A model generated the notes under the pieces. The model made no database searches and was not told the DNA's origin. It saw only the letters and a program-made list of their open reading frames with translations. The position numbers were made by a program, and so were the translations under genes. Positions 7,723 through 32,922 of a stretch of DNA of 39,156 nt are shown here, one piece after another. How positions within the stretch are numbered: the stretch's first letter is position 1; each line of letters begins with the position of its first letter. The stretch is from Myxococcales bacterium (lineage in GTDB: Bacteria; Myxococcota_A; Polyangia; Polyangiales; Polyangiaceae): assembly GCA_903642325.1 (NCBI GenBank), contig CAHJWM010000045.1:1-39156 (forward strand), in the 5' to 3' direction.

Positions 7723-9005
7723 GGCGAAGCTCCGCCACGCTTTCCCTTTTTGACGGCACCCGTGTCGTCCACAGTATCTGAAGAGCCCGGCGCGCCTTCG
7801 TCCGAACGAACCGGCGTGCTCGTGCGGGGCGAAACTTTTGCGCCGGGCCGGAGCTGGTTTTGGCCTTCGACGACCACTCTATCGCCGGCCTTGAGGCCAT
7901 TGCCGATGATCGCCCACTGCTCCTGCACGGTGTCGACGACCACCGTGCGTAGGGCGGCGGTTTGATCGGGCATGGCGATGTACACGAAGCTCCCCTGAGG
8001 GCCTCGTTGCACGGCGGGCGCCGGGATGGCGAGCACGGCACTTCTGACGCTCAGCACCAAGCGCGCTCTTACGAATTCATTCGGCCAAAGCGCTTTGTCC
8101 GGGTTCGGCACGGTGCCCTTCAGGCGCACGGTGGCAGTGGCGGTGTTCACCTGGTTGTCGACTAGGGTGAGCTTGCCCTTGCCGAGCAGCCGGTCGCCGT
8201 CTCGGCTGTAGGCCTCGATGCTCAACCCGCCGTCGATCTCCTTGTTGATCAGCGGAAGGTCGTCTTGTGGCAGCGTGAAGACGATGGTCATCGGGTCGAG
8301 CTGCGTGACGACGACGATGCCGTTCGGGTCCGAGGCGTGGACGACATTGCCTTGATCGACCTGGCGTACCCCAGTCACACCGTCTACCGGAGAACGAACC
8401 TCCGTGTACGTCAGCTGGAGCTGCGCGTTTTCGATTTGGGCCTGGTCCGACTTCGTCGTGCCCGCGAATTGATCGGCGCTCGCTCGCTGATCGTCCAGTT
8501 GCTCTTGGGTGGCGAGGCCTTGATCGTGGAGGGCGGTGTAGCGCGCCAGGTTGAGCGTGGCGTTCTTCGCTTGCGCTTGGTCGCGCGCCAGGGCGGCTTG
8601 AGCTTGGTGAAGCGCGATCGTGAACGGCCGCGGGTCGATGCGCGCCAATAGGTCGCCCTTCTTGACGGCCTGCCCTTCCCGAAACGAGACCGCGGTGAGG
8701 GGGCCGTCCACTTGAGGCCGAACGGTGACCGTCACAAGCGGCACGGCGTTACCCAAGCCATCGAGGTACACGGGCACGTCACGCAGGGTGGCCGTGTCCA
8801 AGACCACTGGCACAGGCCGCGCCTCGCCGGCCTTGCCTGCCGGCGCGCCCGTGCTCGTTGTCGACTTCCGATGGCGAACGAACAACGTTGCGCCGGCGAC
8901 TCCCACGAGCAGCAGCGCTCCTAGTATCCAGCGCGCGGACCGGTGCGGCTCCACCCTCCCGGCCGTGAGTTCCGAAGTCATGATTTGCGTGTACGCTCTC
9001 CACAC
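7719..9005 (-). CDS. mdtA: RND periplasmic adaptor (membrane fusion protein), MdtA-like
   Basis: Membrane-fusion protein of 428 aa that links the RND pump to an outer-membrane channel. One N-terminal membrane anchor (WILGALLLVGVAGATLF, about residues 27-43) is followed by a barrel-sandwich/lipoyl half motif (VRPQVDGPLTAV and GDLLARIDPRPF), an alpha-helical hairpin rich in Gln/Ala, the second half motif (VRSPVDGVTGVRQVD) and the beta-barrel. The start is uncertain: GTG 9005 has GGGGA 7 nt upstream, whereas ATG 8981 (MTSELTAG) has no well-placed Shine-Dalgarno, so I prefer GTG. It is the first gene of the pump operon. The C-terminus is a charged tail (KKGKRGG). Confidence 0.9.
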   Translation of the reverse strand: MWRAYTQIMTSELTAGRVEPHRSARWILGALLLVGVAGATLFVRHRKSTTSTGAPAGKAGEARPVPVVLDTATLRDVPVYLDGLGNAVPLVTVTVRPQVDGPLTAVSFREGQAVKKGDLLARIDPRPFTIALHQAQAALARDQAQAKNATLNLARYTALHDQGLATQEQLDDQRASADQFAGTTKSDQAQIENAQLQLTYTEVRSPVDGVTGVRQVDQGNVVHASDPNGIVVVTQLDPMTIVFTLPQDDLPLINKEIDGGLSIEAYSRDGDRLLGKGKLTLVDNQVNTATATVRLKGTVPNPDKALWPNEFVRARLVLSVRSAVLAIPAPAVQRGPQGSFVYIAMPDQTAALRTVVVDTVQEQWAIIGNGLKAGDRVVVEGQNQLRPGAKVSPRTSTPVRSDEGAPGSSDTVDDTGAVKKGKRGGASP

Positions 9006-9455
9006 TGGTTCCCCGTGAACCGAGCTAGTTTCATGCCATCAACTAGGGCAGTCCGCTGTCTCCGGCAGTCCCCCTACAAATTCGGTTGCAGATGCCGCGC
9101 CGCCGCCGTCGGCATGTGCGCCTCACCGGGCTATCCGCCGGAGGTCATCGGGTAACACTAAAGTAACTTCAAGGGCTCAGCAGCCGCCGCAGCGCGGGAT
9201 TTCGCGTGCCGGCGGGCGCCCGCAACGCTTCGACGAGAAGCTTGCCGGACACCTGTTTGCAACAGACTTCGGCCGACCCTCAGGCGATGCGCCCCCTCAT
9301 GGATGACGCCGGCAACCCCTTCAGATCCGTCCCTATGAGCCACGAATCCAGGTCGAAGCCCTGAACGGTTTGATCAAGTTTAGCGGAGGGGACAACCGGT
9401 CGGTCACCCGTTCGAAACAATCGCGTACGCCCTACCTACCATGCGAGGTCAGAGA
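9006..9455. other. 450-bp divergent intergenic region
   Basis: This region separates the RND operon (leftward) from the nitrogen operon (rightward), so it must hold both promoters. Besides the repeat at 9025-9046 there is a small inverted repeat CTGTT-TGC-AACAG at 9253-9265 and a TTGATCAA palindrome at 9370-9377. I looked for a guanidine (ykkC-type) riboswitch and did not recognise one. No substrate-binding protein gene is present. Short open frames here (for example 9158-9343 minus) lack start signals or recognisable sequence. Confidence 0.5.
9025..9046. promoter_or_regulatory. Inverted repeat, candidate operator for RND operon
   Basis: CTAGTT at 9025-9030 and AACTAG at 9041-9046 form a perfect inverted repeat with 6-bp arms and a 10-bp spacer. 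It lies 20 bp upstream of the mdtA GTG start. The size and position suit a dimeric repressor such as those of the TetR family that often control efflux pumps. No regulator gene is adjacent, and no convincing -35/-10 pair could be placed, so the role is inferred from position only. Confidence 0.35.
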
Positions 9456-10544
9456 ATGACGTCACAATCCGAAACCTCGCGCCGTACCGCTCTGCCGAGC
9501 GAGCCATTGGCCCGTATGCTCGGCGTGCGCAAGCCGCTCGACGCGCAGGCTCGGTTTTGGATTGGGGTGCTGGCCTTTGCCCTGCCGTTTCTGTCTTGGT
9601 GCGCGATCAGCTACGTGCCGTTCATCTGGCATCCCCAAATTTTGGTCGAGGACGCGGGCGACAGCAAGATACCGGGTCAAAACAACTACATCGCCGTGGG
9701 TGACCGCGTGGACCTCGACGTCGTTATCTCACGCAATCGCGATCTCGACGCCGTGCACGCTCGGCGCGTGACGGGTCAGCGAGTCAATCCGATTTATCTA
9801 CAGTCCCCGCATGCGGTGGCTCGGGCCATGTACACCGCGTTCACCACCGCGCCCGAGCGGGATGGCGACGCCTGGCTGCACGAGAGCTTGCTGCAGAGTT
9901 GCAAGGTGATTTTTTGGGGTTTCTTTTGGTCCGCGGTCTTTGGGCTGCCGTTGGGCGTGCTGTGCGGCACATTTCCCTTCTTCGCTCGGCTGTTCGAGCC
10001 TTTCATCGACTTCGTGCGCTACATGCCGGCTCCGGTCTTCGGTGCGCTCGCGCTCACGGTGCTCGGTCTGAATGACGCGCCTAAAATCACGATCATTTTT
10101 ATTGGCACCTTTTTTCAGATGGTACTGATCGTATCCAATACCACCCGCTCGGTGGAAGTCTCGCTGCTGCAGGCCGCGCAGACGCTGGGCGCCAGCAAGC
10201 GCCAGTTAGTGTGGAACGTAGTAGTCCCCGGCGCAGTGCCCGGCTTGTATCGTGATATGCGCATCCTGCTCGGCTGGGCTTGGACGTACCTGGTCGTGGC
10301 GGAGCTCATCGGCGAAAAATCCGGTTTGAGCGCGTGGCTTTATCAACAGCAGCGTTACCGTCATTTCGACAACGTGTATGCCGCGATCGTGATCATTGGC
10401 CTGGTCGGGCTGATCACCGACCAATTTTTGGCCGTGGCCGGTCGCTACTTGTTTCCCTGGGAAACCGGTCAGACAAAGCTCGTGCGCGTAATACGGGCCA
10501 TGCGCCGCGCCCTGCCGCAACGCGCCCGCTTGGCCGGTACTTGA
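9456..10544 (+). CDS. ABC transporter permease, urea/guanidine-carboxylase-associated
   Basis: Inner-membrane permease of the NitT/TauT-type ABC family (TauC/SsuC-like), 362 aa. It has TM1 at about residues 35-55, a periplasmic insertion of roughly 80 residues, then a five-helix permease core. The core contains the EAA-type loop AAQTLGASKRQLVWNVVVPGA, which contacts the ATPase. ATG 9456 is preferred over ATG 9441 because GAGG lies just upstream of it. The long periplasmic insertion after TM1 is, as I recall, characteristic of the permeases in urea-carboxylase operons. The ATPase gene follows after 101 bp. The operon's usual periplasmic binding protein is missing here. Confidence 0.85.
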   Translation: MTSQSETSRRTALPSEPLARMLGVRKPLDAQARFWIGVLAFALPFLSWCAISYVPFIWHPQILVEDAGDSKIPGQNNYIAVGDRVDLDVVISRNRDLDAVHARRVTGQRVNPIYLQSPHAVARAMYTAFTTAPERDGDAWLHESLLQSCKVIFWGFFWSAVFGLPLGVLCGTFPFFARLFEPFIDFVRYMPAPVFGALALTVLGLNDAPKITIIFIGTFFQMVLIVSNTTRSVEVSLLQAAQTLGASKRQLVWNVVVPGAVPGLYRDMRILLGWAWTYLVVAELIGEKSGLSAWLYQQQRYRHFDNVYAAIVIIGLVGLITDQFLAVAGRYLFPWETGQTKLVRVIRAMRRALPQRARLAGT

Positions 10545-10645
10545 ACGTTTTCCCCGTGCCGGGCGCGCGGGATTGCTCCCCTACTTAAGGCGTTTCTTCT
10601 TCGAGCAGCGCCGGATGGGCTCCTGCGCGCCGAAAGTTACTGAAA

Positions 10646-11530
10646 ATGTCTGACGACCGCATTCAGCTCCCCAGCTACCTCGATCACGTTCCGGAAGTCC
10701 TCGAGTATTTCGCCGAGATCGACCAGCGCAAGGTGGTGCTCAGCATCGAGCACTTGTGCCGCGAATTCGACAGCCCAGACAGCCCCAATGGCAAGCTCGT
10801 CGCCCTTTCCGACATCAACTTCGAGGTCCGGCGCAATGAATTCATCAGCGTCATCGGTCCGTCGGGCTGCGGCAAGTCGACGCTCATCCGCGTCGTTGCG
10901 GGGCTGGAGGAACCGAGCGGCGGCATCGTTGCGGTCGACGGAGTGCCTGTGACCGGACCGGGCGCCGATCGCGGCATGGTGTTTCAGAACTACACGCTCT
11001 TCCCCTGGCTGACGGTGCGGAAAAACGTTTTGTTCGGGCCGAAGATGAAAGGCTTGCGAGACGACAAAGCGATGAAGGCGGCCGATGAGTGGCTGAAGCT
11101 CGTCGGCCTGACAGATTTCGCCGAGCTGTACCCAGCGCAGCTTTCCGGAGGCATGAAGCAGCGCGTTGCCATCGCGCGCGCCTTGGCCAACGACCCCCGC
11201 ATTCTACTGATGGACGAGCCCTTTGGAGCGCTCGACGCGCAGACTCGCGCCAGCATGCAAGCTCATCTTCTACGCATTTGGGCCGCGGCCGGGGTCACCG
11301 TGCTCTTCATCACTCATGATCTCGATGAAGCGATTTACCTGTCCGATCGCATCGTAGTGCTCGGCGCGCGGCCGGGTCGGATCTTGGAAGTCATCGAGGT
11401 CCCAGTCGCGCGGCCCCGCTCGCCGGAGCAGTTCCTTTCGGGTCATTTTCTGGCCACGAAAAAACGGCTAGAGGAGCTCATCCACCGGCGGGAGAACACG
11501 CCAAACTCGGGAGGATCGATGCATGATTGA
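10646..11530 (+). CDS. ABC transporter ATP-binding protein, NitT/TauT type
   Basis: Cytoplasmic ATPase, 294 aa, that should drive the adjacent permease. Walker A is GPSGCGKST, the signature is LSGGMKQR, Walker B is [12 protein letters not shown], and the switch His is in [10 protein letters not shown]. It has an N-terminal extension of about 35 residues before the ABC domain (it starts [15 protein letters not shown]), which is longer than the core TauB/SsuB proteins. It overlaps the next gene by 8 nt, so the transporter and the DUF1989 genes are one operon. The substrate is inferred from the operon to be guanidine, urea or a related compound. Confidence 0.9.
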
Positions 11531-12245
11531 ACACTCATCGGAATGGCTCGTCGACGAGGGCCTGCGCGGCGGAGCGATGTGGTCTCGTATCGTGAAGCGG
11601 GGCCAAGTACTGCGCCTGACGGACGTTGAAGGTGGCGCGTCAGTCGCTGGACTCTTGTTCAACGCGGACTTCCCGCTCGAGCGCTACAATATGCCGGACA
11701 CGCTCAAGGCTCAGCACATCGCCCGCCTGACGCAGGGCCACGTGCTTTATTCCGACATGGGGCGTGTGTTGTGCTCGATCGTCGCGGACACCTGCGGCTG
11801 GCATGACACGCTCACGGGCGTCGGCAACATGGCCTCGAGTGTCGAAAAATACGGCCCCGGTGACTATCAAGCGCTGCGCAATGACTGGCGCAGGAATAGC
11901 CGCGACAATTTGCTCGTCGAGCTCGCCAAGTATGGCCTCGGCAAGCGAGACTTCGGACCAAATCTAAATTTCTTCGTAAAGGTCGGAGCAGACGCAGAGG
12001 GCAAGCTTTCCTGGGTGCCAGGGAACTCAAAACCTGGCTCGTACATCGAGCTACGCACCGAAATGAATACGCTGGTCGTGCTTTCGAACACGCCGCACCC
12101 GCTCGACCCTACACCCTCGTACGCAGTGCGGCCGCTCAGAATCGGTATTCGCCTAGCTGGGCCCGTCACTGCCGACGACGCCTGCCGCACCTCGTGCCCG
12201 GAGAATGAGCGCGGGTTTGCGCTCACTGAAGCTTATTACCTTTAA
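11523..12245 (+). CDS. DUF1989 protein UAAP1-type, likely carboxyguanidine deiminase subunit
   Basis: Urea-carboxylase-associated protein (DUF1989 family), 240 aa. Conserved features are [12 protein letters not shown] (17-28), [40 protein letters not shown] and the metal/active-site-like DTCGWHD (Cys91, His94, Asp95). In characterised guanidine-degrading bacteria two such proteins (CgdA and CgdB) form carboxyguanidine deiminase, which converts carboxyguanidine to allophanate and ammonia. GGGAGG lies upstream of ATG 11523, inside the end of the ATPase gene. Which of the two Cgd subunits it is I cannot settle, as naming differs between databases. It is diverged from its neighbour but shares the same fold motifs. 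Confidence 0.85.
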
Positions 12246-12255
12246 TTGGAGCTCA

Positions 12256-12897
12256 ATGGCACTTTCCGAAAGCTCACTCGACCCCAAGCATGCCAAGTTC
12301 GACACCGTGCTCGGTTCTGGGCTCGGGTTCAGTCACGTCCTCCGGCGTGGGGAAACGTTTCGCATCGTCGACTTGGAGGGTAACCAAGCGGTCGACACAT
12401 TGTTTTACGACGCCCACGATCCGAGCGAGCGTTATAGTGCCGTCGATACGATTCGCAGTCAGGGAGGAATCTACCTGAGCGCGGGCTCCCCGCTGATGTC
12501 GACCGAAGGCCGGATCATGCTCGAGATCACCGCCGACACCTGTGGTCGGCACGACACCGTCGGCGGCGCGTGCGCGGCCGAGTCGAACCAAGTCCGTTAC
12601 GCGCTCGACAAGAAGTACATGCACAGCTGCCGGGACAATTTTTTGCTCGAGATTGCCAATCGCCGTCCCGAGCTCACCAAACGCGATCTCACGGCGAACA
12701 TCAATTTTTTCATGAATGTGCCGGTTAGCCCAGAGGGCGAGCTGCATTTCGACGACGGCATCTCGGCGCCAGGGCGCTACGTGGAGATGCGCGCGGAAAG
12801 CGATGTTATCGTGCTCATTTCGAATTGTCCGCAGCTGAACAATCCGTGCAACGGTTACGACCCGACGCCCGTCCGTCTCTTGGTCTGGCCGGCGTGA
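12256..12897 (+). CDS. DUF1989 protein UAAP2-type, likely carboxyguanidine deiminase subunit
   Basis: Second DUF1989 protein, 213 aa. Motifs are [17 protein letters not shown] (36-52), [10 protein letters not shown], the cysteine/histidine motif DTCGRHD (Cys96, His99, Asp100), [15 protein letters not shown] and [15 protein letters not shown] 12256 is chosen because GGAG sits 5 nt upstream and the family starts near here; an open frame extends upstream into the preceding gene without family similarity. It lies 10 bp after UAAP1 and 64 bp before the carboxylase. The obligate pairing with UAAP1 and a urea-carboxylase homologue is the signature of guanidine breakdown, where the pair acts as one hetero-oligomeric deiminase. 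The assignment to a specific subunit is open. Confidence 0.85.
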
Positions 12898-12961
12898 TTG
12901 GACGCTTCGCGCCGACTCCCCTCGGGCTCGGCGCACCGCAATTCTCGTAGCAGGAGGAAAC

Positions 12962-15900
12962 ATGTTCGAGAAAGTTCTGATCGCCAATCGGGGTGAGATC
13001 GCTTGTCGTGTCATTCGTACGCTGAGAAAGCTCGGCGTTGCCTCGGTCGCGGTTTATTCGGAGGCCGACCGCAACTCGCTTCACGTGCTGGAGGCCGACG
13101 AGAGCGTGTGTGTCGGTCCGGCGGCGGCTTCCGCCAGCTACCTGAACCGCGATGCAATCCTCGGCGCGGCGCAGCGGACGGGCGCGAAAGCGATCTTTCC
13201 GGGTTACGGCTTCCTCAGTGAGAATGCGCAGTTTGCCGAGGGGGTGGAGGCGGCAGGAATCGCTTTTGTCGGTCCTACTCCGGAACAGATGCGTCGCTTC
13301 GGCGTCAAGCACACCGCGCGCGAGCTGGTGCAGGAGCTCGGCGTTCCCCTGCTCTCGGGAACCCCGCTCTTGCCCAACGTGGGCGCGGCTATCGCCGCGG
13401 CGGAAAGCATCGGATATCCGGTGATGCTGAAGAGCACGGCGGGTGGGGGCGGAATCGGCATGCAAGTATGCCGAGACGCCACGAAAATTTCCGACGCTTT
13501 CGAGTCGGTGCGCTCGCTTGCTCAAAAGAATTTCGGCGAAGGTGGCGTCTTCTTGGAGCGCTTCGTCGAGCGCGCGCGACACATCGAGGTGCAGCTGTTC
13601 GGTGACGGCCACGGGCAAGTGATCGCACTCGGCGAGCGTGACTGCTCGGCCCAGCGCCGTCATCAAAAAGTGGTGGAAGAGACGCCCGCACCGCGGCTCC
13701 GACCAGAGGCACGAACGGCGCTGCTCGAGGCGGCGGTGCTCATCGGCTCCTCGGTGAATTACCGCTCCGCCGGCACCGTCGAGTTCGTATACGACGATGA
13801 TCGTGGAGAGTTCTACTTTCTGGAAGTCAACACGCGCCTGCAGGTCGAGCACGGGGTGACAGAGCTCGTCACGGGGGTGGATCTAGTGGAGTGGATGATT
13901 CGACTCGCCGCGGGGGAGACCCTGCCGCTCGAGCGCGCGCCCGAGCCACGTGGTCACGCGATTGAAGTCCGCGTGTACGCGGAAGATCCGGCGCGCGGTT
14001 TCAAGCCGAGCCCGGGGGTGCTGACCGAAGTCTCGTTCCCCGAGGGCGTGCGCGTCGACTCGTTCGTCGAGACGGGCACCGAGATCAGCGGCTTCTACGA
14101 CCCCATGATCGCCAAGCTGATGGCATTCGCAGAAGACCGCGAGCAAGCCATCTCCGCGCTTCGTCAAGCACTGGAGAAGACTCGGCTCGCAGGCACCGAG
14201 ACCAATCTCGCTTACCTGACCTATATCCTGGGTACGGACGTGTTTCGCGAGGGCCGCACGACGACGACCTACCTTGGCACATTGGCTTTTTCGAGCGCGA
14301 CGGTGGAGGTGATGAGCGCGGGAACGTTGAGCACGGTGCATGACTATCCGGGGCGCCTCGGCTATTGGGACGTGGGCATTCCGCCATCGGGTCCGTTCGA
14401 CGACCTCGGCTTTCGCTTGGCCAACCGCGTCGTGGGTAACGTGCCGGGCGCGCCAGCCCTCGAGCTCACCATCTCCGGCCCTACTCTGCGCTTCGCGACC
14501 GATACGGTGATCGCGCTCGCGGGCGCGGACATGGAGGCCGAGCTGGACGGCGTCGAGCTCCCGTACTTCGAGCCCGTTGCGGTGCGCGCGGGCCAGCAGC
14601 TCAGGCTCGGCGTCATTCGCGGCGCCGGCTGCCGAACGTACCTGGCCGTGCGGCATGGCTTCGACGTGCCCGAATACCTGGGCAGCCGTTCGACCTTCAC
14701 CCTGGGGGGCTTCGGGGGCCACGCCGGCCGCGCCCTACGGAAAGGGGACGTCTTGCGCTTACTGAGCACCGGTAATACCGAGGCGGATCCGATGGCGCTC
14801 GAAGTGAGCGCGAGGCCCGTGCTGAGCGAGACGTGGCAGATCGGCGTGCTGTACGGTCCGCACGGGGCGCCGGACTTCTTCACGCCCGCCGACATCGACA
14901 CGTTTTTCCGCAGTGACTTCGAGGTCCATTACAACTCGGCGCGCACGGGCATCCGGCTCATCGGGCCGCAGCCGGAGTGGGCTCGGGCGGACGGAGGCGA
15001 GGCCGGCCTCCATCCGTCGAACATTCACGACAACGCCTACGCGTTTGGCACCATCGACTTCACCGGCGACATGCCGATCATCCTTGGCCCGGACGGGCCG
15101 AGCCTCGGCGGTTTCGTCTGCCCCGCGACTATCGTACGCGCCGAGTTGTGGAAGGTTGGCCAGCTACGTCCCGGAAATCAAGTGCGTTTCATCCCCGTGG
15201 CCCGAGCTGCGGCGGAGCTAGCGCTGTCCGAGCAGGACCGCGCAGTCAGTGAGCGCAAGGCCCAACCGAATTCGCCACTCACTGCCGTGCCCACGGTGGA
15301 CGCGGTGCTTCGGCGCTTGCCAGCGCGGGGTGAGGCGCCACGAGTGGTCTATCGGCCCGCGGGGGACGAGTTTTTGCTCGTCGAGTACGGCGAGGCCGTG
15401 CTCGACCTCGAACTGCGCTTCCGCGTTCACGCGCTGATGGAGTGGCTGCGCCATGAAACACTGCCTGGGATCATCGATCTTACGCCGGGCATTCGTTCCC
15501 TGCAAATTCATTACGATAGTCAACGGTTGGGGTTTTCCCGACTCCTGGACGTGCTCGCGCGCGCTGAAAGCGAGCTGCCATCGGTCGACGCGATCGATGT
15601 GCCGACACGCGTCGTGCACATGCCGCTGTCTTGGGACGACCCAGAGACACGTTTGGCGATCGAGAAGTACACGCAAATCGTGCGCAAGGGCGCACCCTGG
15701 ACGCCAAGCAATATCGAGTTCATTCGGCGCATCAACGGCCTACCGGACGAGCAAGCGGTAAAAGACATCGTATTTGGTGCTCGTTACCTGGTGCTCGGGC
15801 TGGGCGATGTTTACCTGGGAGCGCCGGTCGCGACACCGCTCGATCCGCGACACCGCTTGGTGACGACGAAATACAATCCCGCGCGCACCTGGACGCCGGA

Positions 15901-16552
15901 GAACGCAGTGGGTATCGGCGGCGCGTACATGTGCGTCTACGGCATGGAAGGGCCTGGCGGCTATCAATTCGTGGGCCGCACCGTACAGGTTTACAACCGC
16001 TTCAAGACCACGAAACACTTTCAAGGCGCCACCCCATGGTTGCTGCGATTTTTCGATCAAATTCGGTTCTATCCAGTCGACGCCAAGGAGCTTTTGGAGA
16101 TGCGCGAGGCGTTTCCGCACGGTCGCTTGCCGCTCAAAATCGAGGATCAGCGCTTCCGCTTGGCGGACTATCGTCGGTTTCTGGCGCAAGAGTCAGAATC
16201 TATTGCCGCCTTTCGTGCGCTTCAGCGCGGTGCCTTCGCTGAAGAGCGCCAGCGCTGGATGGATTCGGGTCAGCTCAACTTCAGCGTCGAGCCGGCAGAG
16301 GCGGGGCCAGGCGCGAGCGGTCGTTCTTGGGATGGCGGGACCATCGTCGAGAGCGGGGTGCCGGGCAGCATCTGGAAGCTCTTGGTGAAGGCCGGGCAAC
16401 GCGTGGCGAAGGGCGAGGTCGTCGCCATCATCGAGTCGATGAAAATGGAGATCGCCATCGAAGCGCCCGTAGCTGGCTTGGTGCTGGAAGTCGTCGCCGC
16501 CGAGGGTAGACCCATCGCCCCCGGTCAGCCCGTGATCGTGATCAAAAATTAG
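12962..16552 (+). CDS. Biotin-dependent urea/guanidine carboxylase
   Basis: ATP- and biotin-dependent carboxylase, 1196 aa, the usual length for stand-alone bacterial urea/guanidine carboxylases. Domain order: biotin carboxylase 1-445 (ATP-grasp loop GGGGIGMQ, QRRHQKVVEE, EVNTRLQVEH); carboxyltransferase made of a KipA-like half from about 447 and a KipI-like half from about 792; BCCP domain from about 1125. Biotin attachment is Lys1161 in ESMKMEI, confirmed in the DNA at 16442. AGGAGG precedes ATG 12962. There is no fused allophanate hydrolase. The UAAP pair upstream suggests guanidine as the substrate, giving carboxyguanidine, rather than urea. Guanidine and urea carboxylases cannot be separated here on sequence alone. 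Confidence 0.92.
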   Translation: MFEKVLIANRGEIACRVIRTLRKLGVASVAVYSEADRNSLHVLEADESVCVGPAAASASYLNRDAILGAAQRTGAKAIFPGYGFLSENAQFAEGVEAAGIAFVGPTPEQMRRFGVKHTARELVQELGVPLLSGTPLLPNVGAAIAAAESIGYPVMLKSTAGGGGIGMQVCRDATKISDAFESVRSLAQKNFGEGGVFLERFVERARHIEVQLFGDGHGQVIALGERDCSAQRRHQKVVEETPAPRLRPEARTALLEAAVLIGSSVNYRSAGTVEFVYDDDRGEFYFLEVNTRLQVEHGVTELVTGVDLVEWMIRLAAGETLPLERAPEPRGHAIEVRVYAEDPARGFKPSPGVLTEVSFPEGVRVDSFVETGTEISGFYDPMIAKLMAFAEDREQAISALRQALEKTRLAGTETNLAYLTYILGTDVFREGRTTTTYLGTLAFSSATVEVMSAGTLSTVHDYPGRLGYWDVGIPPSGPFDDLGFRLANRVVGNVPGAPALELTISGPTLRFATDTVIALAGADMEAELDGVELPYFEPVAVRAGQQLRLGVIRGAGCRTYLAVRHGFDVPEYLGSRSTFTLGGFGGHAGRALRKGDVLRLLSTGNTEADPMALEVSARPVLSETWQIGVLYGPHGAPDFFTPADIDTFFRSDFEVHYNSARTGIRLIGPQPEWARADGGEAGLHPSNIHDNAYAFGTIDFTGDMPIILGPDGPSLGGFVCPATIVRAELWKVGQLRPGNQVRFIPVARAAAELALSEQDRAVSERKAQPNSPLTAVPTVDAVLRRLPARGEAPRVVYRPAGDEFLLVEYGEAVLDLELRFRVHALMEWLRHETLPGIIDLTPGIRSLQIHYDSQRLGFSRLLDVLARAESELPSVDAIDVPTRVVHMPLSWDDPETRLAIEKYTQIVRKGAPWTPSNIEFIRRINGLPDEQAVKDIVFGARYLVLGLGDVYLGAPVATPLDPRHRLVTTKYNPARTWTPENAVGIGGAYMCVYGMEGPGGYQFVGRTVQVYNRFKTTKHFQGATPWLLRFFDQIRFYPVDAKELLEMREAFPHGRLPLKIEDQRFRLADYRRFLAQESESIAAFRALQRGAFAEERQRWMDSGQLNFSVEPAEAGPGASGRSWDGGTIVESGVPGSIWKLLVKAGQRVAKGEVVAIIESMKMEIAIEAPVAGLVLEVVAAEGRPIAPGQPVIVIKN

Positions 16553-24123: not shown

Positions 24124-24569
24124 GGCAGCGCCGCTGGCGACTCGACAACCTCATTCAGCGACAGCCAAAACTGGCCCAGGGTACTCACCGCCGCGGCAAA
24201 GTCAGCAAATTCGACTGGCTTTCGGACGTAGGCGTTGGCTCCGAGCGCATAGCTCCGAAGTACGTCTTCGTCTTGCCGCGACGCGGTCATGACCACGACC
24301 GGGAGGATCTTAGTACGGGCGTCCTCCCGAATTCGGCGTAGCACCTCAAGACCGTCGATTTTGGGCAGCTTCAAGTCCAGAAGCACTAAGCGAGGGAGGA
24401 CCGAGACATTCCGATCCGTGTGCTCGCCCGTCCCGAACAGGTAAGCAAGGGCTGCCGCACCATCCCTTTCGACCAGTACGTTGCCGGCGATTTGCGCTTT
24501 TTTGAAGGCGAGTCGCATCAGCTTTTCATCGGTGGCATTGTCTTCGACGACGAGAATGGTCGGACTCAT
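24120..24569 (-). CDS. Single-domain response regulator, Rcp1/CheY-like
   Basis: Stand-alone receiver protein, 149 aa, with no output domain. Key residues are the acidic pair in VVEDNATD, phospho-acceptor Asp65 in LLDLKLPK, Thr in VMTAS and Lys117 in VRKPVEF. The long loop before the acceptor and the extended C-terminus resemble the Rcp1 class that partners with phytochrome-like kinases. The upstream kinase has exactly that architecture, and both junctions overlap by 4 nt. Its likely job is to shuttle phosphate from the GAF/PAS kinase to the hybrid kinase or another target. Confidence 0.9.
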   Translation of the reverse strand: MSPTILVVEDNATDEKLMRLAFKKAQIAGNVLVERDGAAALAYLFGTGEHTDRNVSVLPRLVLLDLKLPKIDGLEVLRRIREDARTKILPVVVMTASRQDEDVLRSYALGANAYVRKPVEFADFAAAVSTLGQFWLSLNEVVESPAALP

Positions 24570-27073
24570 GGTGAGGATCCCCGGCTCTTTTCTGGAAAAG
24601 AAAAATAGAACGTCGCCCCGCGTTCGACCTCACTTTCGGCCCAAATTCGACCGCCATGGCGAGTCACGATGCGTTGCACTGTCGCTAGGCCAATGCCGGT
24701 TCCCGGGTACTGAGTCGCCGCGTGCAGGCGTTGGAATGGCTTGAACAACTTGTCAGCAAAGGCCATGTCGAACCCAGCGCCGTTGTCCCGCACGAACAAG
24801 GAAGCGCCACGGCGGCCAAACTCGAGGCTCGCGGGAGTTTTTTTGCTCGTGAATTTCCAAGCGTTTCGCAGCAGATTCTCGAGCAGCACTCGTGCCAGCA
24901 CCGGATCGACGACGGCGGTCAAGCCGGGGGCGATGATCACATCGGCTCGGCGCGTCGGCTCCTCGGCCGCGAGATCCTCGAGCACGGAGCTTGCCACGGC
25001 CGACAGATCGACACGGGTTCGCTTGGGCTCGAGACGCGTGACGCGCGCCAGCTCCAAGAGAGCGTCGATCAGCGAGCCCATCTTTTGAGCGTTCGTGACG
25101 ATTTCGTGCAGCCAATCACGCCCTTCGTCGTCCAACTGATCGCCGTAGGTATCGAGCAGTAAGCTCGCGAACCCATTCATTCCGCGCAGGGGAGCGCGTA
25201 AGTCGTGCGCCACCGAATAACTGAATGCTTCGAGTTCGCCGCTAGCCGCCTCGGCGGCATCCTTGGCCCTGGCGAGCGCCTCTTCCGCGAGGTGACGTTC
25301 GGTGATGTCGCGCGCCACCTTGGAAGCACCGATCAAGTGGCCTTTCGAATTGTATAGAGGTGAGCTCGTCAGCGAGACGTGAATCTCTATTCCGTCCCGA
25401 CGACGCCTGATGGTGTCGAGGATCTCGACCCGCTCGCCACGCTTGAGCCGTTCGAGAATTCGCGGCTCCTCGTCCTCACGCCCCGGCGGGACCAGGACGG
25501 CGATGGGGCGGCCAATCATCTCTTCGGCCGTGTACCCAAAGATTCGTCGCGCGCCGTCGTTCCAAGTAGTGACGATGCCATCCAGCGTTTTGCTGATGAT
25601 TGCGTCGTCGGAGTAGGAGACGATCGACGCGAGGCGGGCTTGTTCCACTTCCACTTGCCTCCGATCACTGATGTCGCGGATGGCCCGCGAAATGAAGACC
25701 TCTTCCTCGGTTTCCAGGGAGCTGGAGGTGACTTCGCTGTAGAACTCGCTGCCGTCTTTGCGGCGACCCATCAGCTCGACGCTCGAAGGAGGCCGTGTGG
25801 CTCGCGCCCCCGACCTCGACCTTGATGGTGGCGCTTGACTAGGACGCGCCATGCAGTTGGGCACCAGCAGCTCGATGGATTTCCCGATTAGCTCCTCTCG
25901 AATGTAACCGAAAAGCTTTTCGGTCTGCGCGTTCACGAGCGCCATCGTCCCGTCCAGCGTCGTAATGACGACGGCGTCCGGAGCGGCCTCGACAAAGCCT
26001 TCGAACAGGCTCTCCGAAGAACGAGCACTTTCGAACACGCGTAAGGCTTCGTTAGCGCGGTCGATCACTGCGCGAGCGGCACGCTCGGCGGCATTTGACC
26101 TCGCGCTTTCGATGACCAGTGCGGCCCGCATCGCGAGCTGCTCGGCAAACTCCACATCGCCTGAATCGAAGGATTTGGCCTCGGCGCGGTAGCGCGCCAA
26201 TATCAGCACGCCGATAACACGAATTCCCGTTCCCAATGGCACGATGATGAGACTATGTATCCCGAGCGAAGCGCTGAATTGCTGATTGCACTCGCTCGTA
26301 AAGGCGAACGGGCCGTCGGGGCGCAGCACTGAAAATAGCACCGCTTCTCCGGTCTCATGCACGCGACGCACGAGCGGGTCGCGGAACAGATCATTGTGCC
26401 CGAACAGGCGCCCCTTGATTGTGTTCGAAGCGTACGGGTCTAGACCGTGAAACGCGATGGGGAAAGCCTCGGAGCCCCCCTCCGGCACCATCGAGACGAC
26501 GCAGAAAGCATCGCCGAGCTCGGCCATGCGCGTGGCAATCAGGTGCAACAAGCTCGGAAGATCATCGCTCACCTCGCAGAACTCCCGAGCGACCGCGGCC
26601 AGGCTCTGAGCTTGCTCGGCGCGTCCGATCCGCTCTAGGTGTTCTCGCGCGCTCGTGATCGCCAAAGCGGCATGGTCGGCAAGCGACTGCGCGATCGCGT
26701 GGTCCTGGGCATCGAACGGGGCGGCTGTACGCGCCCGGAAAGTGCGCATCTTCCCGATCGTACGACCCCGCGTCTGCATCGGCACAACGAGCGCGCTCCC
26801 TCGCGCCTCGCCTTCGGGCTGCGGTGCCGCGCTATCCAGAGCCGCGGCGCTGCCCGCCACGGGCGACGGGCCGGGCCGCGTGTCGAGCCAGAGCTCGAAG
26901 GTCGTGACCCCGCCCAGGCTCGCACCCACCTGGATCTCTAAAGCAGAAATGAGCGCGCCCTGGTCGCTGAGCCCGTCCGCAGCGATGCGCATCACCGCCA
27001 TCAGCGACCGCACCCCGCTGTCGACCGGTCGAACACGCAAGTCTGGGCTCGGTGCCCGATTTAGCTCATGCAT
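24566..27073 (-). CDS. Histidine kinase with two GAF and two PAS domains, phytochrome-like
   Basis: Soluble sensor kinase, 835 aa. From sequence I place two GAF-like domains (about 20-145 and 165-325), two PAS domains (about 355-475 and 480-600, with FGYIREELIGKS and FGYTAEEMIGRP), a phytochrome-type HisKA helix with phospho-His623 (YSVAHDLRAPLRGMNGF) and an HATPase domain (NLLRNAWKFTSK, DNGAGFDM, GTGIGLATVQRIVTRHGG). No conserved chromophore Cys is obvious in the GAF domains, so light sensing is not supported. GAF and PAS inputs suggest small-molecule or redox sensing. It starts 18 bp after the REC-EAL stop and overlaps the response regulator by 4 nt. Confidence 0.88.
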   Translation of the reverse strand: MHELNRAPSPDLRVRPVDSGVRSLMAVMRIAADGLSDQGALISALEIQVGASLGGVTTFELWLDTRPGPSPVAGSAAALDSAAPQPEGEARGSALVVPMQTRGRTIGKMRTFRARTAAPFDAQDHAIAQSLADHAALAITSAREHLERIGRAEQAQSLAAVAREFCEVSDDLPSLLHLIATRMAELGDAFCVVSMVPEGGSEAFPIAFHGLDPYASNTIKGRLFGHNDLFRDPLVRRVHETGEAVLFSVLRPDGPFAFTSECNQQFSASLGIHSLIIVPLGTGIRVIGVLILARYRAEAKSFDSGDVEFAEQLAMRAALVIESARSNAAERAARAVIDRANEALRVFESARSSESLFEGFVEAAPDAVVITTLDGTMALVNAQTEKLFGYIREELIGKSIELLVPNCMARPSQAPPSRSRSGARATRPPSSVELMGRRKDGSEFYSEVTSSSLETEEEVFISRAIRDISDRRQVEVEQARLASIVSYSDDAIISKTLDGIVTTWNDGARRIFGYTAEEMIGRPIAVLVPPGREDEEPRILERLKRGERVEILDTIRRRRDGIEIHVSLTSSPLYNSKGHLIGASKVARDITERHLAEEALARAKDAAEAASGELEAFSYSVAHDLRAPLRGMNGFASLLLDTYGDQLDDEGRDWLHEIVTNAQKMGSLIDALLELARVTRLEPKRTRVDLSAVASSVLEDLAAEEPTRRADVIIAPGLTAVVDPVLARVLLENLLRNAWKFTSKKTPASLEFGRRGASLFVRDNGAGFDMAFADKLFKPFQRLHAATQYPGTGIGLATVQRIVTRHGGRIWAESEVERGATFYFSFPEKSRGSSP

Positions 27074-27091
27074 TCAGCAAACCGATCAGCA

Positions 27092-28276
27092 CTAAGACAA
27101 TCGTTCATTGGGGCGCTCCAGTGCTGACAACGGCCGCGGATGCCCGAAAAGATAGCCCTGTAAGAAGTCACATCCGGCCTCGATCAGCGTGGCCCGTTCC
27201 AGCTCATTTTCTACGCCCTCCGCGACCGTCGCCTTGCCCATGTTGCGGCAAAGACGCGTGATCGAGCCAACGATCTTTTGTTTCGCGGAATCGCGGTCAA
27301 TGCCTCGTATCATTCTGATATCTAGTTTGACGAATTCCGGCTCGAGCCTGGAGAAAGTGGCCGGGTCCGCCTGACCCCCGCCCAAGTCATCGATGGCGAT
27401 GCGGAAGCCGAGGGCTCGAAGCTTCTCTAAGCGTGCCGGGACGTCGTTGACGCGCTCGAGCGAGGCCCGGTCATTGAGCTCGAGGATCACCTGGCCGGCG
27501 ACACGGCTCAGGCCAGCGCTCGGCAAATAGAGAGCTGGGTCCAGGAGGTCTTCAGAGTGCATATTCACGAAAACGAGGGCACCCCCGCGCGCAACTTCGG
27601 CGGCCTGCGCAGCGACCAGCGCACGGACGGCGCGGCCGACGTCGTGCAGTCGACCTACCTTTTCGGCCGCGATCAGCACCGCATTCGGGTTTGGCAGTGC
27701 CGGTTCATCGCTGCGCATCAGCGCTTCGTACCCAAAAGTTTCAGAATCAGCCGCGCGAACGATGGGCTGATACGCCATCCACAGTGACTGAAAGGCCAAG
27801 TTGAGCTTGGAATCGATGCCAGCACGATCGCCAACATAGAATGATCCGCTGCCAAACTCCTCGGCGCAGGCGCGTTTCAAGCGAGCCATTCGACCCACGT
27901 TTATCGCGCGGTCGACCACTGCTCGTAGCCGATCGATGGCTATGGGCTTGATCAGATACTGAAAGGCCCCGTATTCGACCGCGGCGGCTGCGCTCTTGAG
28001 GTCCGGGTCGGCGGTCATCAACACGACGGGCAAATCCAGGTCGTGCTGACGCACTGCGTGCAGCAATTTCAGGCCGTTCATGCCGGGCATGTTGATGTCG
28101 CTCACGACGACATCGAAAAAGCCCGCTGCCAGTTTGTGGAGAGCCGCTTCGCCGCTGCTGGCGCCGGTGACGGCGACGCCGGGCGCACTCAGCGCGCGCC
28201 CTAAGACCGCGAGCAGGGCCGCATCGTCATCGACCAGCAAAATTGCGGTGCCCTCTTTTTCCACGTCTTCCCGCAT
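27092..28276 (-). CDS. REC-EAL cyclic-di-GMP phosphodiesterase
   Basis: Response regulator with a c-di-GMP phosphodiesterase output, 394 aa. The receiver occupies 1-125 (LLVDDDAALL, acceptor Asp60 in VVSDINMP, Lys110). The EAL domain (about 155-390) keeps the catalytic set as I read it: Glu184 in YEALMR, Asn238, Glu266 in LELNDRA, Asp296/Asp297 in IDDLGGG, Lys318, Glu353 in AEGVEN and Gln373. Loop 6 reads DLGGG instead of the usual DFGTG, which may alter activity or regulation. It is first in the minus operon, divergent from the FIST operon across 155 bp. There is no GGDEF partner in the window. Confidence 0.88.
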   Translation of the reverse strand: MREDVEKEGTAILLVDDDAALLAVLGRALSAPGVAVTGASSGEAALHKLAAGFFDVVVSDINMPGMNGLKLLHAVRQHDLDLPVVLMTADPDLKSAAAAVEYGAFQYLIKPIAIDRLRAVVDRAINVGRMARLKRACAEEFGSGSFYVGDRAGIDSKLNLAFQSLWMAYQPIVRAADSETFGYEALMRSDEPALPNPNAVLIAAEKVGRLHDVGRAVRALVAAQAAEVARGGALVFVNMHSEDLLDPALYLPSAGLSRVAGQVILELNDRASLERVNDVPARLEKLRALGFRIAIDDLGGGQADPATFSRLEPEFVKLDIRMIRGIDRDSAKQKIVGSITRLCRNMGKATVAEGVENELERATLIEAGCDFLQGYLFGHPRPLSALERPNERLS

Positions 28277-28431: not shown

Positions 28432-29559
28432 GTGCACAGCGAGAAGCGACTCGTCGCGCGGCAGGCGCGCACGACCGACTCTAATATCGATCGAGCGCTA
28501 GCCGAGATTTGCGAGCAAGTCGATGCCCGCGGGGCGAGTGTCAATTTGCTGTTTTGTTCGCCAAAATACGAAGCAAAGGAGCTCGGTCGAAAAATCGAGC
28601 GTGCCTTTTCGACGCCAATCATCGCCTGCATGGCGGCAGGACAATTTGGCCGGGGCGGCTTCCAGTGCGATGGAATTACGGCGGTCAGTTTGAACAGTAG
28701 TGAGCTTCGTCTGACTTCTCACCTGATCACGCCTCTGGCGGAATGTCAGGCGCGCGCCTCCGAGGCGGCTTTTTCCGCGCTGAATCAGCTATCGGAGCGA
28801 GGGTCGGAGCGAGCCTTTGGTTTCGTCCTGTCGGATGGCCTGTCACGCGCCGAGGAACGCCTGGCTGCTTCTCTGTATCAATCACTGGGGGCTATCCCGC
28901 TCATTGGCGGCTCCGCCGGCGACGACATGGCAACCGAAGCGACCTATGTTTACCATGAGGGCAAGTTTCATCGGGACGCCGCCGTATTATCGTTGTTCGA
29001 GACCACCCTTCCGTTCGCGAGTTTCAAGGCGCAGCACGCGCGCCCGGGTCGGCACAAGTTGGTCGTGACCATGGCCGACCCAGAGCAACGAAGAGTTTAC
29101 GAATTCAACGGCGAACCGGCGGCGGACGCGTACGCGCAAACGTTGGGCTTCGACGTCGACGAGCTCGGCCCGCTATTTTTTTCGAAGCACCCGCTCATGC
29201 TGCGCAGCGGAGGCGACAGCTACATTCGGTCGGTCAAGACGATGAGGCCCGACCACAGCCTCGAATTCTTCTGTGCCATGGAAGAGGGGTTGGTCTTGAC
29301 GATCGGGGAGTGCGGCAGTCCGAGCGAAGCGCTCCAGCAAAGCTTGCTGGAGGTGCAAGGTAAAATTGGCGTACCCGAGATCGTCATCGGCTGCGATTGC
29401 GTCTTGCGTCGCCAAGAGTTCGAGCACGACGGCCTCGCCGGTAAAATGGGCGAGCTCATGGCACGTAACCAGATGGTCGGCTGCAGCACGCACGGCGAGC
29501 AATTCAACGCTATCTACGTCAACCAAACATTGAGCGCGGTGGCGCTGGCCGCGGGATGA
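28432..29559 (+). CDS. FIST domain sensory protein
   Basis: Stand-alone FIST protein (FIST N about 30-220, FIST C about 230-365), 375 aa, with no transmembrane segment or output domain. Characteristic stretches are VNLLFCSPKYEAKEL, ACMAAGQF, the IGGSAGDDM turn, YVYHEGKFHRDAAVLSLF, IRSVKTM, and VIGCDCVLRRQ with VGCSTHGEQFN at the end. FIST is a predicted ligand-binding input domain, proposed for amino acids or other small molecules, and is usually found with kinases or chemotaxis proteins. The GTG start at 28432 gives the family N-terminus. Its stop overlaps the histidine kinase by 4 nt (ATGA), so it probably serves as that kinase's detached sensor. Several conserved Cys residues (C66, C304 and C306 region) could bind metal or respond to redox. 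Confidence 0.88.
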   Translation: MHSEKRLVARQARTTDSNIDRALAEICEQVDARGASVNLLFCSPKYEAKELGRKIERAFSTPIIACMAAGQFGRGGFQCDGITAVSLNSSELRLTSHLITPLAECQARASEAAFSALNQLSERGSERAFGFVLSDGLSRAEERLAASLYQSLGAIPLIGGSAGDDMATEATYVYHEGKFHRDAAVLSLFETTLPFASFKAQHARPGRHKLVVTMADPEQRRVYEFNGEPAADAYAQTLGFDVDELGPLFFSKHPLMLRSGGDSYIRSVKTMRPDHSLEFFCAMEEGLVLTIGECGSPSEALQQSLLEVQGKIGVPEIVIGCDCVLRRQEFEHDGLAGKMGELMARNQMVGCSTHGEQFNAIYVNQTLSAVALAAG

Positions 29560-30689
29560 CCACGGGGACGGTGCTCGGAGAGCTGTCATTGCCGGAGCTG
29601 ACGCTCAAGGTCGATGCATTGGAGCGAAAACTTCGAGCCAAAGAGAAGACCATCCGCGTCTTGATTCAGCGGGTAGAGGGTAGCGCCAGTGAAGTGCACT
29701 CGGCGTTCTGGGTCTTGGAGCAAAACATCGCGCTGGAAAAAATGGTCGTCAAACGGACGGCCGAAATCAACGCGCAAAAGGAGCAGCTTGCGCAAGCTTT
29801 GGCAGAGCTTCAAGGGGCCCAAGCAAAGCTCCTTCAGGCGCAAAAGCTCGAGGCGATTGGACAGCTCGCCGCCGGCATCGCGCATGAGGTGAACACGCCG
29901 ACGCAGTACGTGTCGGACAACACCGCCTTCGCCAAGCGCGCGGTCGTGGGCTTAATCGAAACACTTCAGGCATCCTTGGCCGTGGTGCAGGCCGTCCAAG
30001 AGGGCCGCGACACCTCGACCCTGATCCCGTGCGTGGACAGTTTGCTGAAGACCGCCAAAATTCCATATCTATTGGTGCAACTTCCCCGCGCGCTCGACCA
30101 AGCGCAGGAAGGGCTTGGTCGCGTCGCGACGATCGTGCAGGCGATGAAAGAATTTTCTCATCCGAGCAGCGCCGAGAAGACGCCGGTGAACCTCCGGGAG
30201 GCCATCGAGACGACGATCGCCGTGGCCCGCCACGAATGGAAGTACCTGGCCGACGTGGACTTGGCCATGGACCCGGAGATGCCGCCGGTGCCCGTCCTGC
30301 GCAATGAGTTTAATCAGGTGATCCTCAACTTGATCGTCAATGCCGCGCATGCGATCGGCGGCGTCACGGCCGGAGGCTCGGAAGGCAGGGGCAAGATCAC
30401 CATTGCCGGGCGTACTGGCGTCGACAGCGTGGAGATCCGCATCACGGACACGGGCTCGGGCATCCCCCTGCATGCGCGGGCCAAGGTGTTCGAGCCGTTC
30501 TACACGACAAAGGCAGTAGGAAAAGGCACAGGTCAAGGCCTGGCCATTGCTTATTCGGTCATCGTGGATAAGCACCAGGGATCGATCTCGTTCGAGACGG
30601 AGCCTGGCCAAGGCACGACCTTCATCATTACCCTTCCTCTGCGCGACGCCGGCCTGGGTGCCGCCGCGCCTGCGAAGGATATCCCATGA
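29556..30689 (+). CDS. Histidine kinase with coiled-coil input, FIST operon
   Basis: Cytoplasmic kinase, 377 aa. It has no PAS, GAF or membrane sensor: the N-terminal 105 residues are two coiled coils (about 17-45 and 58-105, Leu/Glu/Lys/Gln-rich). Phospho-His110 lies in AAGIAHEVNTPTQYVSDN, followed by a long dimerisation region with insertion. The HATPase domain carries NLIVNAAHAIG, DTGSGIP, FEPFYTTK and GTGQGLAIAYSVIVDKHQG. The HEVNTPTQ box is the class seen in kinases that work with REC-HDOD or REC-HD-GYP proteins. The lack of its own sensor, with 4-nt overlaps on both sides, argues that FIST provides the signal and the next two proteins are targets. Confidence 0.9.
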   Translation: MTTGTVLGELSLPELTLKVDALERKLRAKEKTIRVLIQRVEGSASEVHSAFWVLEQNIALEKMVVKRTAEINAQKEQLAQALAELQGAQAKLLQAQKLEAIGQLAAGIAHEVNTPTQYVSDNTAFAKRAVVGLIETLQASLAVVQAVQEGRDTSTLIPCVDSLLKTAKIPYLLVQLPRALDQAQEGLGRVATIVQAMKEFSHPSSAEKTPVNLREAIETTIAVARHEWKYLADVDLAMDPEMPPVPVLRNEFNQVILNLIVNAAHAIGGVTAGGSEGRGKITIAGRTGVDSVEIRITDTGSGIPLHARAKVFEPFYTTKAVGKGTGQGLAIAYSVIVDKHQGSISFETEPGQGTTFIITLPLRDAGLGAAAPAKDIP

Positions 30690-31795
30690 AAGTCCTGTTC
30701 GTCGACGACGAGCCTCGCGTCTTGGAAGCACTCGAGCGCTCGCTCTTCCAGTTGGACGTGGACTGGAACGTGACCTTCGCCGAAGGCGGTCAGGCCGCGC
30801 TGCGCGAGCTGGCCGCGGCGCGCTTCGATGTGGTCGTGTCCGATATGCGCATGCCGGGCATGGACGGCGCCGCGTTGCTCAGCCAGGTGTGCAAAAAATA
30901 TCCGCATGTCGTGCGTATCGTCTTGTCCGGTCAAACCGACGAAGCCGAAGCGTTTCGCGCGGTTCGGGTAGCGCATCAATTTCTAGCAAAGCCATTTAGC
31001 TCCGAAGCACTTCGACAGGTGATCGAGCGGGCGCGTTTGCTCATGATGGGGCTCGGAGACGAGCGACTGCAGGCTATCGTCGGGCGCCTCGAACATCTGC
31101 CGTCAGCTCCGCAGTTGATGGATGACCTGACGCGCGCTCTCGAGGACGAGGCTACGACGGCCGAAACGTTGGCGGCTATCGTTCGGCAGGATCCAGCCAT
31201 GAGCAGCAAAGTGTTACAACTGGTCAACTCGTCCTTCTTTTCGAATGGGGCCAGCATCAGCGACATAAGAGCGGCGGTCGTGCGGCTCGGCACAAAAACC
31301 GTGCGCGCGTTGGCCACGAGGGGCGGCGCGTTTGCGGCTTCTACGAAGCCCGGTGAGCTCTCGTCAGCATCGGTGGCAACCGCGCAGCTCCGGTCGCTCG
31401 CCACCGCCCGTGTCGCCAGCCGTATCGCCAAGGATAAGGTCGATCCAGCCGCCGCCTTCGCAGCCGGACTGCTGTGCGACGTAGGCGAGCTAATCTTGAG
31501 CGGGCCCATGTCGCACGAAAGTGACGGATCTGAGGGGGAGCATCGCCAGCGCGACGCACTGAAGCATGCCGAGGTCGGAGCCTTTTTTCTGGGCCTTTGG
31601 GGGCTGCCGTTCCCCATCGTCGAGGCCGTCGCCAATCACCACGCGCCGTCTCGGACAGCGCTGCACGGCCCCGGCCTGCCTCAGGTCGTGTGGCTTGCGG
31701 CGTGCCTCGTGAATGGCAACGAGCCCGACACCAGCTATTTGCGCCACATCGGGTTCGAAGGCTCACTGTCCGACTACAGGGCAATGACCGAATGA
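30686..31795 (+). CDS. Response regulator with HDOD output (REC-HDOD)
   Basis: Receiver at 1-125 (VLFVDDEP, acceptor Asp53 in VVSDMRMP, Lys107 in LAKPF) joined to an HDOD domain at about 130-335, 369 aa. HDOD landmarks are LPSAPQLMDDLTRAL, AAIVRQDPAMSSKVLQLVNSSFF, ISDIRAAVVRLGTKTVRALA and the later ANHHAPS. HDOD domains are related to HD phosphohydrolases but usually lack catalytic metal ligands and act in protein-protein signalling. It is the presumed phosphorylation target of the preceding kinase and overlaps genes on both sides by 4 nt. Confidence 0.9.
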   Translation: MKVLFVDDEPRVLEALERSLFQLDVDWNVTFAEGGQAALRELAAARFDVVVSDMRMPGMDGAALLSQVCKKYPHVVRIVLSGQTDEAEAFRAVRVAHQFLAKPFSSEALRQVIERARLLMMGLGDERLQAIVGRLEHLPSAPQLMDDLTRALEDEATTAETLAAIVRQDPAMSSKVLQLVNSSFFSNGASISDIRAAVVRLGTKTVRALATRGGAFAASTKPGELSSASVATAQLRSLATARVASRIAKDKVDPAAAFAAGLLCDVGELILSGPMSHESDGSEGEHRQRDALKHAEVGAFFLGLWGLPFPIVEAVANHHAPSRTALHGPGLPQVVWLAACLVNGNEPDTSYLRHIGFEGSLSDYRAMTE

Positions 31796-32922
31796 TCCAG
31801 GCAAGTAATCGTCGTGTTCTGTGTGTGGACGACGAACCGCTGGTGCTCGAGGGCCTCGAACGCACCTTATTCGAGCATTTCGAAGTGACGACGGAGAGTA
31901 ATCCGCTCGCGGCCCTTTCCATCTTGGAAAGTAGTCCGGCGTTTGCAGTCGTCCTCTCCGACATGCGTATGCCCCAACTCGATGGCGCGAAACTACTGGC
32001 GCGCGCCCGAGCGATCGCGCCGCTCACTTCGAGAATACTCCTCACCGGCCAGGCGGAGGTCGATTCCGCCGTCGCGGCGGTGAACGAAGGCCAGATTTTG
32101 CGCTTTTTATGGAAGCCCTGCCCTCCCGCTCACTTGATTCAAGCACTCGAGTTGGGCGTTGAGCAATATCGACTGGTGACGGCGGAGCGGGAGCTCTTGG
32201 AACGAACCGTGACGGGTTGCGTCCGCCTGCTCAGTGAAGTCCTGTCCTTGGTCGCGCCTGCGCTTTTCAGCCGCACCCAGCGCATCAAGGGACTCGTCAC
32301 TCACATGACCAAGAAGCTTGCCCTCGACGACCCGTGGCGCTTCGAGGTGGCGGCTCTTTTCAGCATGATAGGTTGCGTCGGGTTGCCCGAATCGACACTG
32401 GAGCGGGCGCTGGCCCAGCGCCCGCTCGACGCGGCCGAAGAAAAGGCCTTCGCTGACCATCCGCTGATGGCACACCGGTTGCTGTCCGAGATCCCTCGCT
32501 TCGAAGAAATTGCGGCGATGATCAAGCTCCAGGCCAGCCCACCGCTCGCGCCGCCGAGCGTCGATGTCGAACGCGGCGGGACCATGCTACGTCTCGCATT
32601 GCAGGTGGAGCGCGCAACCGCCGGAGGCAAAACCCTCGCCGACGCCATTGCCACCTTGGCGCGCAAAGGTGACGCGGCCGAGCAGCCCTATCTGAGTGCG
32701 CTGAGCGACTTTCGAAACGCGGAAGGCTCCACCACCGTGCGTGCGTTGCCGGTCTCGCAGATGACGGCCGAGATGATCCTCGAGGAAGACGTGCGTACGA
32801 CCAACGGGGTCGTCGTAATTCCCAAGGGTCGGGAGCTATCGACTATCCTGATCGAACGGCTATTCAAGTTCACTCGCGCCGGAACGTTGGTCGAGCCCAT
32901 TCGCGTTCGTGTGCCGATGTAG
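31792..32922 (+). CDS. Response regulator with degenerate HD-GYP-like domain
   Basis: Receiver at 1-125 (VLCVDDEP, acceptor Asp57 in LSDMRMPQ, Lys108 in LWKPC), a short helical linker, then a domain aligned with HD-GYP (about 140-300) and a C-terminal segment (PVSQMTAEMILEEDVRT, PKGRELSTILIERLFKF); 376 aa. The fold landmarks remain (LPESTLERALAQRPLDAAEEKAFADHP), but the HD pair is replaced by Ser-Met (191-192) and the HHE/GYP motifs by KLQASP, so phosphodiesterase activity is unlikely. It may be a scaffold or c-di-GMP reader. The frame is open 65 codons further upstream; ATG 31792 is chosen because it overlaps the HDOD stop as ATGA and starts the receiver. Confidence 0.82.
   Translation: MIQASNRRVLCVDDEPLVLEGLERTLFEHFEVTTESNPLAALSILESSPAFAVVLSDMRMPQLDGAKLLARARAIAPLTSRILLTGQAEVDSAVAAVNEGQILRFLWKPCPPAHLIQALELGVEQYRLVTAERELLERTVTGCVRLLSEVLSLVAPALFSRTQRIKGLVTHMTKKLALDDPWRFEVAALFSMIGCVGLPESTLERALAQRPLDAAEEKAFADHPLMAHRLLSEIPRFEEIAAMIKLQASPPLAPPSVDVERGGTMLRLALQVERATAGGKTLADAIATLARKGDAAEQPYLSALSDFRNAEGSTTVRALPVSQMTAEMILEEDVRTTNGVVVIPKGRELSTILIERLFKFTRAGTLVEPIRVRVPM

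Follow-up and report, generated by a model that had tools for sequence, protein, structure and literature searches.

A conserved operon combining a NosP-like FIST protein and a histidine kinase without sensor domain with REC-HDOD and REC-degenerate HD regulators in a Myxococcales bacterium

Among the described systems, the nosRPK operon of Burkholderia pseudomallei consists of NosP (FIST only), of NosK, which possesses about 130 N-terminal residues without recognised sensor, and of NosR, a REC domain joined to a degenerate HD-GYP domain with an HG-GTP motif; NosP binds NosK, and NosK phosphorylates NosR (PMC12570481). Further sensor-kinase pairs are NosP-NahK-NarR of Legionella and NosP-VpsS of Vibrio cholerae. 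In Shewanella oneidensis, two kinases branch to HnoC, to the EAL enzyme HnoB and to the degenerate HD-GYP protein HnoD, which suppresses HnoB (PMC6335343). Ligand binding and signal relay by FIST-FIST_C proteins in general are described as little known in a review (PMC8846402).

The locus studied here is situated in a stretch of 39,156 bp (contig CAHJWM010000045.1, hereafter the window) from the 5.83 Mb genome of a Myxococcales bacterium. It comprises four genes (Table 1), each of whose three junctions is a 4-nt ATGA start/stop overlap, so that the strict overlap reported in a first-pass annotation of this DNA holds; its description of the gene content (FIST protein, kinase without sensor, REC-HDOD protein, REC protein with a dead HD domain) is likewise confirmed by Pfam and by motif comparison. 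Scans for promoters and terminators gave matches at chance level only.

Table 1. Features of the FIST operon and of the adjoining divergent gene pair (positions in the window)
Feature	Position	Strand	Basis
NosP-like FIST/FIST_C protein, 375 aa, soluble candidate heme/NO sensor	28432..29559	+	Pfam PF08495 1.3e-43, PF10442 5.8e-16
Histidine kinase without sensor domain, 377 aa	29556..30689	+	Pfam HATPase_c 5.9e-25 only; H-box HEVNT
Kinase residues 21-76: NosP-partner signature, candidate docking segment	29616..29783	+	HMM from 5 NahK-type kinases
Response regulator REC-HDOD, 369 aa	30686..31795	+	PF00072 2.8e-22, PF08668 3.5e-33; relatives in conserved neighbourhoods
Response regulator REC + degenerate HD-GYP-like domain, 376 aa	31792..32922	+	PF00072, PF13487 (HD_5) 1.9e-17
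Divergent REC-EAL response regulator, likely enzymatic partner (inferred)	27092..28276	-	PF00563 4.3e-46, PF00072 6.9e-28
GAF/PAS/PAS histidine kinase, possible second input (inferred)	24566..27073	-	Pfam

The organization of the operon resembles that of NosR-NosP-NosK in its detached FIST protein, its kinase without sensor and its REC protein with a degenerate HD-GYP domain, all encoded in one operon; the opinion of the first-pass annotation that a detached FIST-kinase pair was undescribed is thus superseded by this published core (PMC12570481). There are, however, differences: no REC-HDOD protein is reported for NosR-NosP-NosK, the gene order is another one, and the fourth protein of the operon studied here keeps no HD or GYP motif. 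With NosP-NahK(-NarR) of Pseudomonas, Legionella and Azospirillum it has in common a FIST gene beside a kinase gene and the N-terminal kinase signature treated below, whereas the kinase cores of those systems belong to another clade, many of them are larger or hybrid, and the outputs are GGDEF/EAL proteins or a phosphorelay. In its branching to EAL and degenerate HD-GYP regulators under an NO input, the Hno network of S. oneidensis resembles the pathway proposed below, but its sensor is an H-NOX protein and its third regulator a transcription factor, in place of which the present operon has an HDOD protein. In the open-access literature searched, no NosP joined with HDOD was found, nor was the four-gene combination of a NosP-like sensor with both regulators found described.

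Concerning the FIST protein, NosP (NF041558) is its sole NCBIfam match (E 6.9e-106, residues 14-372), with FIST and FIST_C covering the whole length as in NosP and with a histidine kinase gene encoded alongside, in a conserved 4-nt overlap. The score of 354 bits lies under the equivalog cut-off of 450, as do those of the relatives in L027, L028 and L032 (364-393 bits), and the protein is therefore named NosP-like here and not filed as NosP. Among its best plasmid matches are Azospirillum proteins annotated nosP and encoded beside a kinase of the NahK/ErcS family (38% identity). The AlphaFold (AF2) model of the protein (pLDDT 97) is closest, among solved folds, to the FIST domain of human FBXO22 (Z 20.9 over 253 residues, 3.1 A), followed by chorismatase and cyanuric acid hydrolase (Z about 11-13). 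A second, weak FIST match (1.9e-5) exists in the same genome on another contig (C57:18995-19543). Counting against the pathway proposed below, this genome yielded no H-NOX; a search of it for nitrous-oxide reductase (NosZ) gave no match either, the control queries of that search being silent as well.

The NosP homology makes the FIST protein a candidate heme/NO-binding sensor. It is unlikely, in our opinion, that within the same architecture it responds not to NO but to some other small molecule, be it a metabolite, an amino acid or heme as such. Such a reading would agree with the score under the NosP cut-off, with the fold common to enzymes that bind small cyclic ligands (chorismatase, cyanuric acid hydrolase) and with the reported heme response of the V. 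cholerae CdpA FIST (PMC8846402). It would also agree with the residue at position 362, where a near-invariant His is kept in 66 of 68 NosP-type proteins compared and where this FIST protein, alone among the 68, has Tyr; together with the low score, this exchange means that heme binding could differ in this protein. NosP is nevertheless the closest curated family, and His202, kept in 64 of the 68, is present here, whereas the four proteins without it are the most distant FISTs (L041, L042, L044, L045). The literature searched yielded no heme-ligating residue for NosP/FIST proteins.

Conserved synteny, for which the first-pass annotation had proposed to search, was indeed found. NosP loci were collected with an alignment query (80 named loci), a single-sequence FIST query of the genome contigs having matched nothing. 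The exact order FIST, kinase, REC-HDOD, REC-HD recurs in Rouxiella aceris (L055), Methyloversatilis (L056), Kosakonia sacchari (L058), Azoarcus indigens (L059), the deltaproteobacterial MAG Ga0077550 (L061) and Tahibacter soli (L072), as well as in a genome of the same family as the window (L032), and thus spans Enterobacterales, Betaproteobacteria, Xanthomonadales and Myxococcota. L160 has the four genes in another order, and in L028, from the same genus, and in L027/L050 they lie scattered inside about 11 kb. Since very many REC and kinase genes exist in the signalling-rich Myxococcota, a fortuitous grouping of unrelated signalling genes had to be considered; it is rejected as highly improbable, because the same four genes with the same order and overlaps are found in distant phyla (Rouxiella, Kosakonia, Azoarcus, Methyloversatilis, Tahibacter). 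In the NosP tree, the proteins from four-gene operons form one supported clade (98/92), which also takes in a FIST-kinase pair without regulators (L053) and a NosP for which no partner was called (L080), and which is nested in a clade (100/99) with FIST-kinase pairs of Desulfobulbaceae and Desulfocapsaceae; the NosPs of Legionella, Vibrio, Azospirillum and Bradyrhizobium fall elsewhere. In a Zoogloeaceae MAG (L096:360-3941), three tandem FIST genes, with a partial fourth where the contig begins, precede a single kinase gene.

The kinase exhibits the H-box GIAHEVNTP and, by eye, the N and G boxes; as in kinases of the NosK/NahK type, the core is without sensor domain and the sensor is encoded in trans. 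According to the first-pass annotation, its only input was a coiled coil. The lack of a sensor domain stands, but the N-terminal stretch is more than a generic coil, as it matches a signature of NosP partners: A profile trained on only five NahK-type kinases (L047, L083, L101, L107, L124), among which the kinase studied here was absent, and run over the 6,055 ORFs of all loci matches its residues 21-72 (E 3.9e-6). This profile recovered most FIST-adjacent kinases; several kinases of four-gene operons are marginal (0.07-0.14 for L055, L056 and L059), and among the 6,055 ORFs no kinase of the FIST-less cassettes described below passes 0.05. A profile including the present kinase and its relatives scores it at 8.5e-24 and, in 59 whole genomes, gave eight matches below 1e-5, all in FIST clusters and five of them from genomes outside the training set. 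A strict regular expression for the motif had proved too narrow (8/72), and profiles were used instead. In the kinase-core tree, this kinase and those of the other four-gene operons group with the kinases of FIST-less cassettes (100/99), apart from the NahK-type kinases, the deeper joins being unsure because of long branches. The best explanation for a signature common to kinases with such distant cores wherever NosP adjoins is that NosP docks there, and residues 21-76 (about 55 residues) are our candidate for this segment. In the same-genus relative (L028:3417-3509), the signature falls in a short frame of its own that immediately precedes the kinase ORF; a frameshift or a sequencing error is possible there.

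Concerning the two regulators, the third protein combines REC with PF08668 as HDOD response regulators do, and phospho-Asp and Lys are kept in 21 of 22 REC-HDOD proteins. The fourth protein lacks the HD, HHE and GYP motifs of active HD-GYP phosphodiesterases, as do its 26 relatives (27/27), whereas Asp13, Asp14, Asp57 (the phospho-acceptor), Thr85 and Lys108 of its REC domain are invariant in all 27. HDOD domains are usually non-catalytic. Invariant REC sites beside lost HD motifs indicate that selection maintains the receiver function and that the C-terminal domains probably serve for binding; judged by their sequences, both outputs look like pseudo-enzymes. The AF2 model of the REC-dead HD protein has a pLDDT of 88.5; a fold search with it returned matches filled by REC domains and says little on the HD part. 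The NosR model (NF053512, cut-off 400) gives 186 bits for the REC-dead HD and 121 bits for the REC-HDOD protein; it was dropped as a specific test for the outputs, since the REC part carries most of the match and matches occurred in 12 of 14 control genomes. No relatives of the REC-dead HD protein were found on plasmids at 1e-25.

The two regulators might not both be outputs: one could be a phosphate sink or a scaffold that tunes the kinase, while the other, or the REC-EAL protein, carries the signal. That a conserved cassette combines a single kinase with two REC proteins, one with a dead HD and one with a usually non-catalytic HDOD domain, would suit such a role, yet a bare sink needs no C-terminal domain, and both are conserved as domains across phyla; we regard this division of tasks as rather unlikely.

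The kinase and the two regulators also occur without FIST. Of 377 Myxococcota genomes searched with the dead-HD region, 38 gave matches, and among 20 neighbourhoods fetched at least 15, by our count, contain a REC-HDOD gene and the same kind of kinase nearby, mostly without FIST. In these cassettes (L162-L178) the kinase core and both regulators are the same as in the window, whereas the kinase has an input of its own (PAS, PAS with GAF, MASE3 with PAS, or REC), which the present kinase has not; in two of them there is only an N-terminal stretch without assigned domain. In a related genome, an H-NOX gene (PF07700, 5e-34; L161:9367-9948) adjoins the cassette, and the contigs of the other H-NOX places had no REC-HD protein among the matches listed; having been seen once, this arrangement is an anecdote only. 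No published name for the cassette was found. Tentatively, with slightly less than even confidence, we suggest that the trio represents an output cassette of general use, fed either by built-in inputs (PAS, GAF, MASE3, REC) or by separate ones (NosP, perhaps H-NOX). NosP would be attached via a portable N-terminal docking helix that recurs in the NahK kinases, which are distant in other respects, and the output would pass through two pseudo-enzymes and not through an enzyme or a DNA-binding protein.

Upstream of the operon, the REC-EAL gene starts at a distance of 155 bp in divergent orientation and is followed after 18 bp by the gene of the GAF/PAS/PAS kinase. This pair (24566-28276), absent from the first-pass annotation, probably belongs to the same signalling neighbourhood. 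In L027 and L028, the FIST cluster includes relatives of REC-EAL; none was seen beside the proteobacterial four-gene operons, and the linkage was observed only in the family of the window. By eye, the EAL residues seem for the most part preserved; in place of the ELTE-type motif there is ELND, and the next loop departs from the relatives.

With a probability of about two in three, we interpret the operon as a NosP-type two-component pathway leading from the NosP-like FIST protein via the kinase to the REC-HDOD and REC-dead HD proteins and from there, likely, onto c-di-GMP turnover. That FIST acts on the kinase as a separate sensor subunit, as the first-pass annotation had proposed, is well supported by the NosP homology and the conserved synteny. 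The FIST protein would bind heme and sense NO or heme itself; seated on the conserved helical segment at the N-terminus of the kinase, it might shift the balance of autokinase and phosphatase activity, and the kinase would phosphorylate the REC domains of both regulators. Since neither regulator is expected to be an enzyme, they presumably act by binding partners, with c-di-GMP turnover as the most likely target. In this genome the divergent REC-EAL phosphodiesterase would be the natural partner, in the manner of HnoD acting on HnoB in Shewanella; both this target and the direction of control are putative.

Compared with the literature searched, the recurring four-gene order with one NosP clade, the modular cassette, the kinase signature and a set with REC-EAL that resembles HnoB/HnoD are new. 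If the NosP-type pathway is correct, NO/heme sensing of this type would extend to a conserved clade in Enterobacterales, Betaproteobacteria, Xanthomonadales and Myxococcota. The candidate docking segment is open to test, as is an output cassette in which no enzyme is evident.

Elsewhere in the window, two adjacent RND (AcrB-type) transporter genes and a membrane-fusion protein gene are found (1496-9005), as well as ABC transporter genes, a DUF1989 gene and a large biotin-dependent carboxylase fusion (9441-16552), the latter stretch resembling a urea-carboxylase region.
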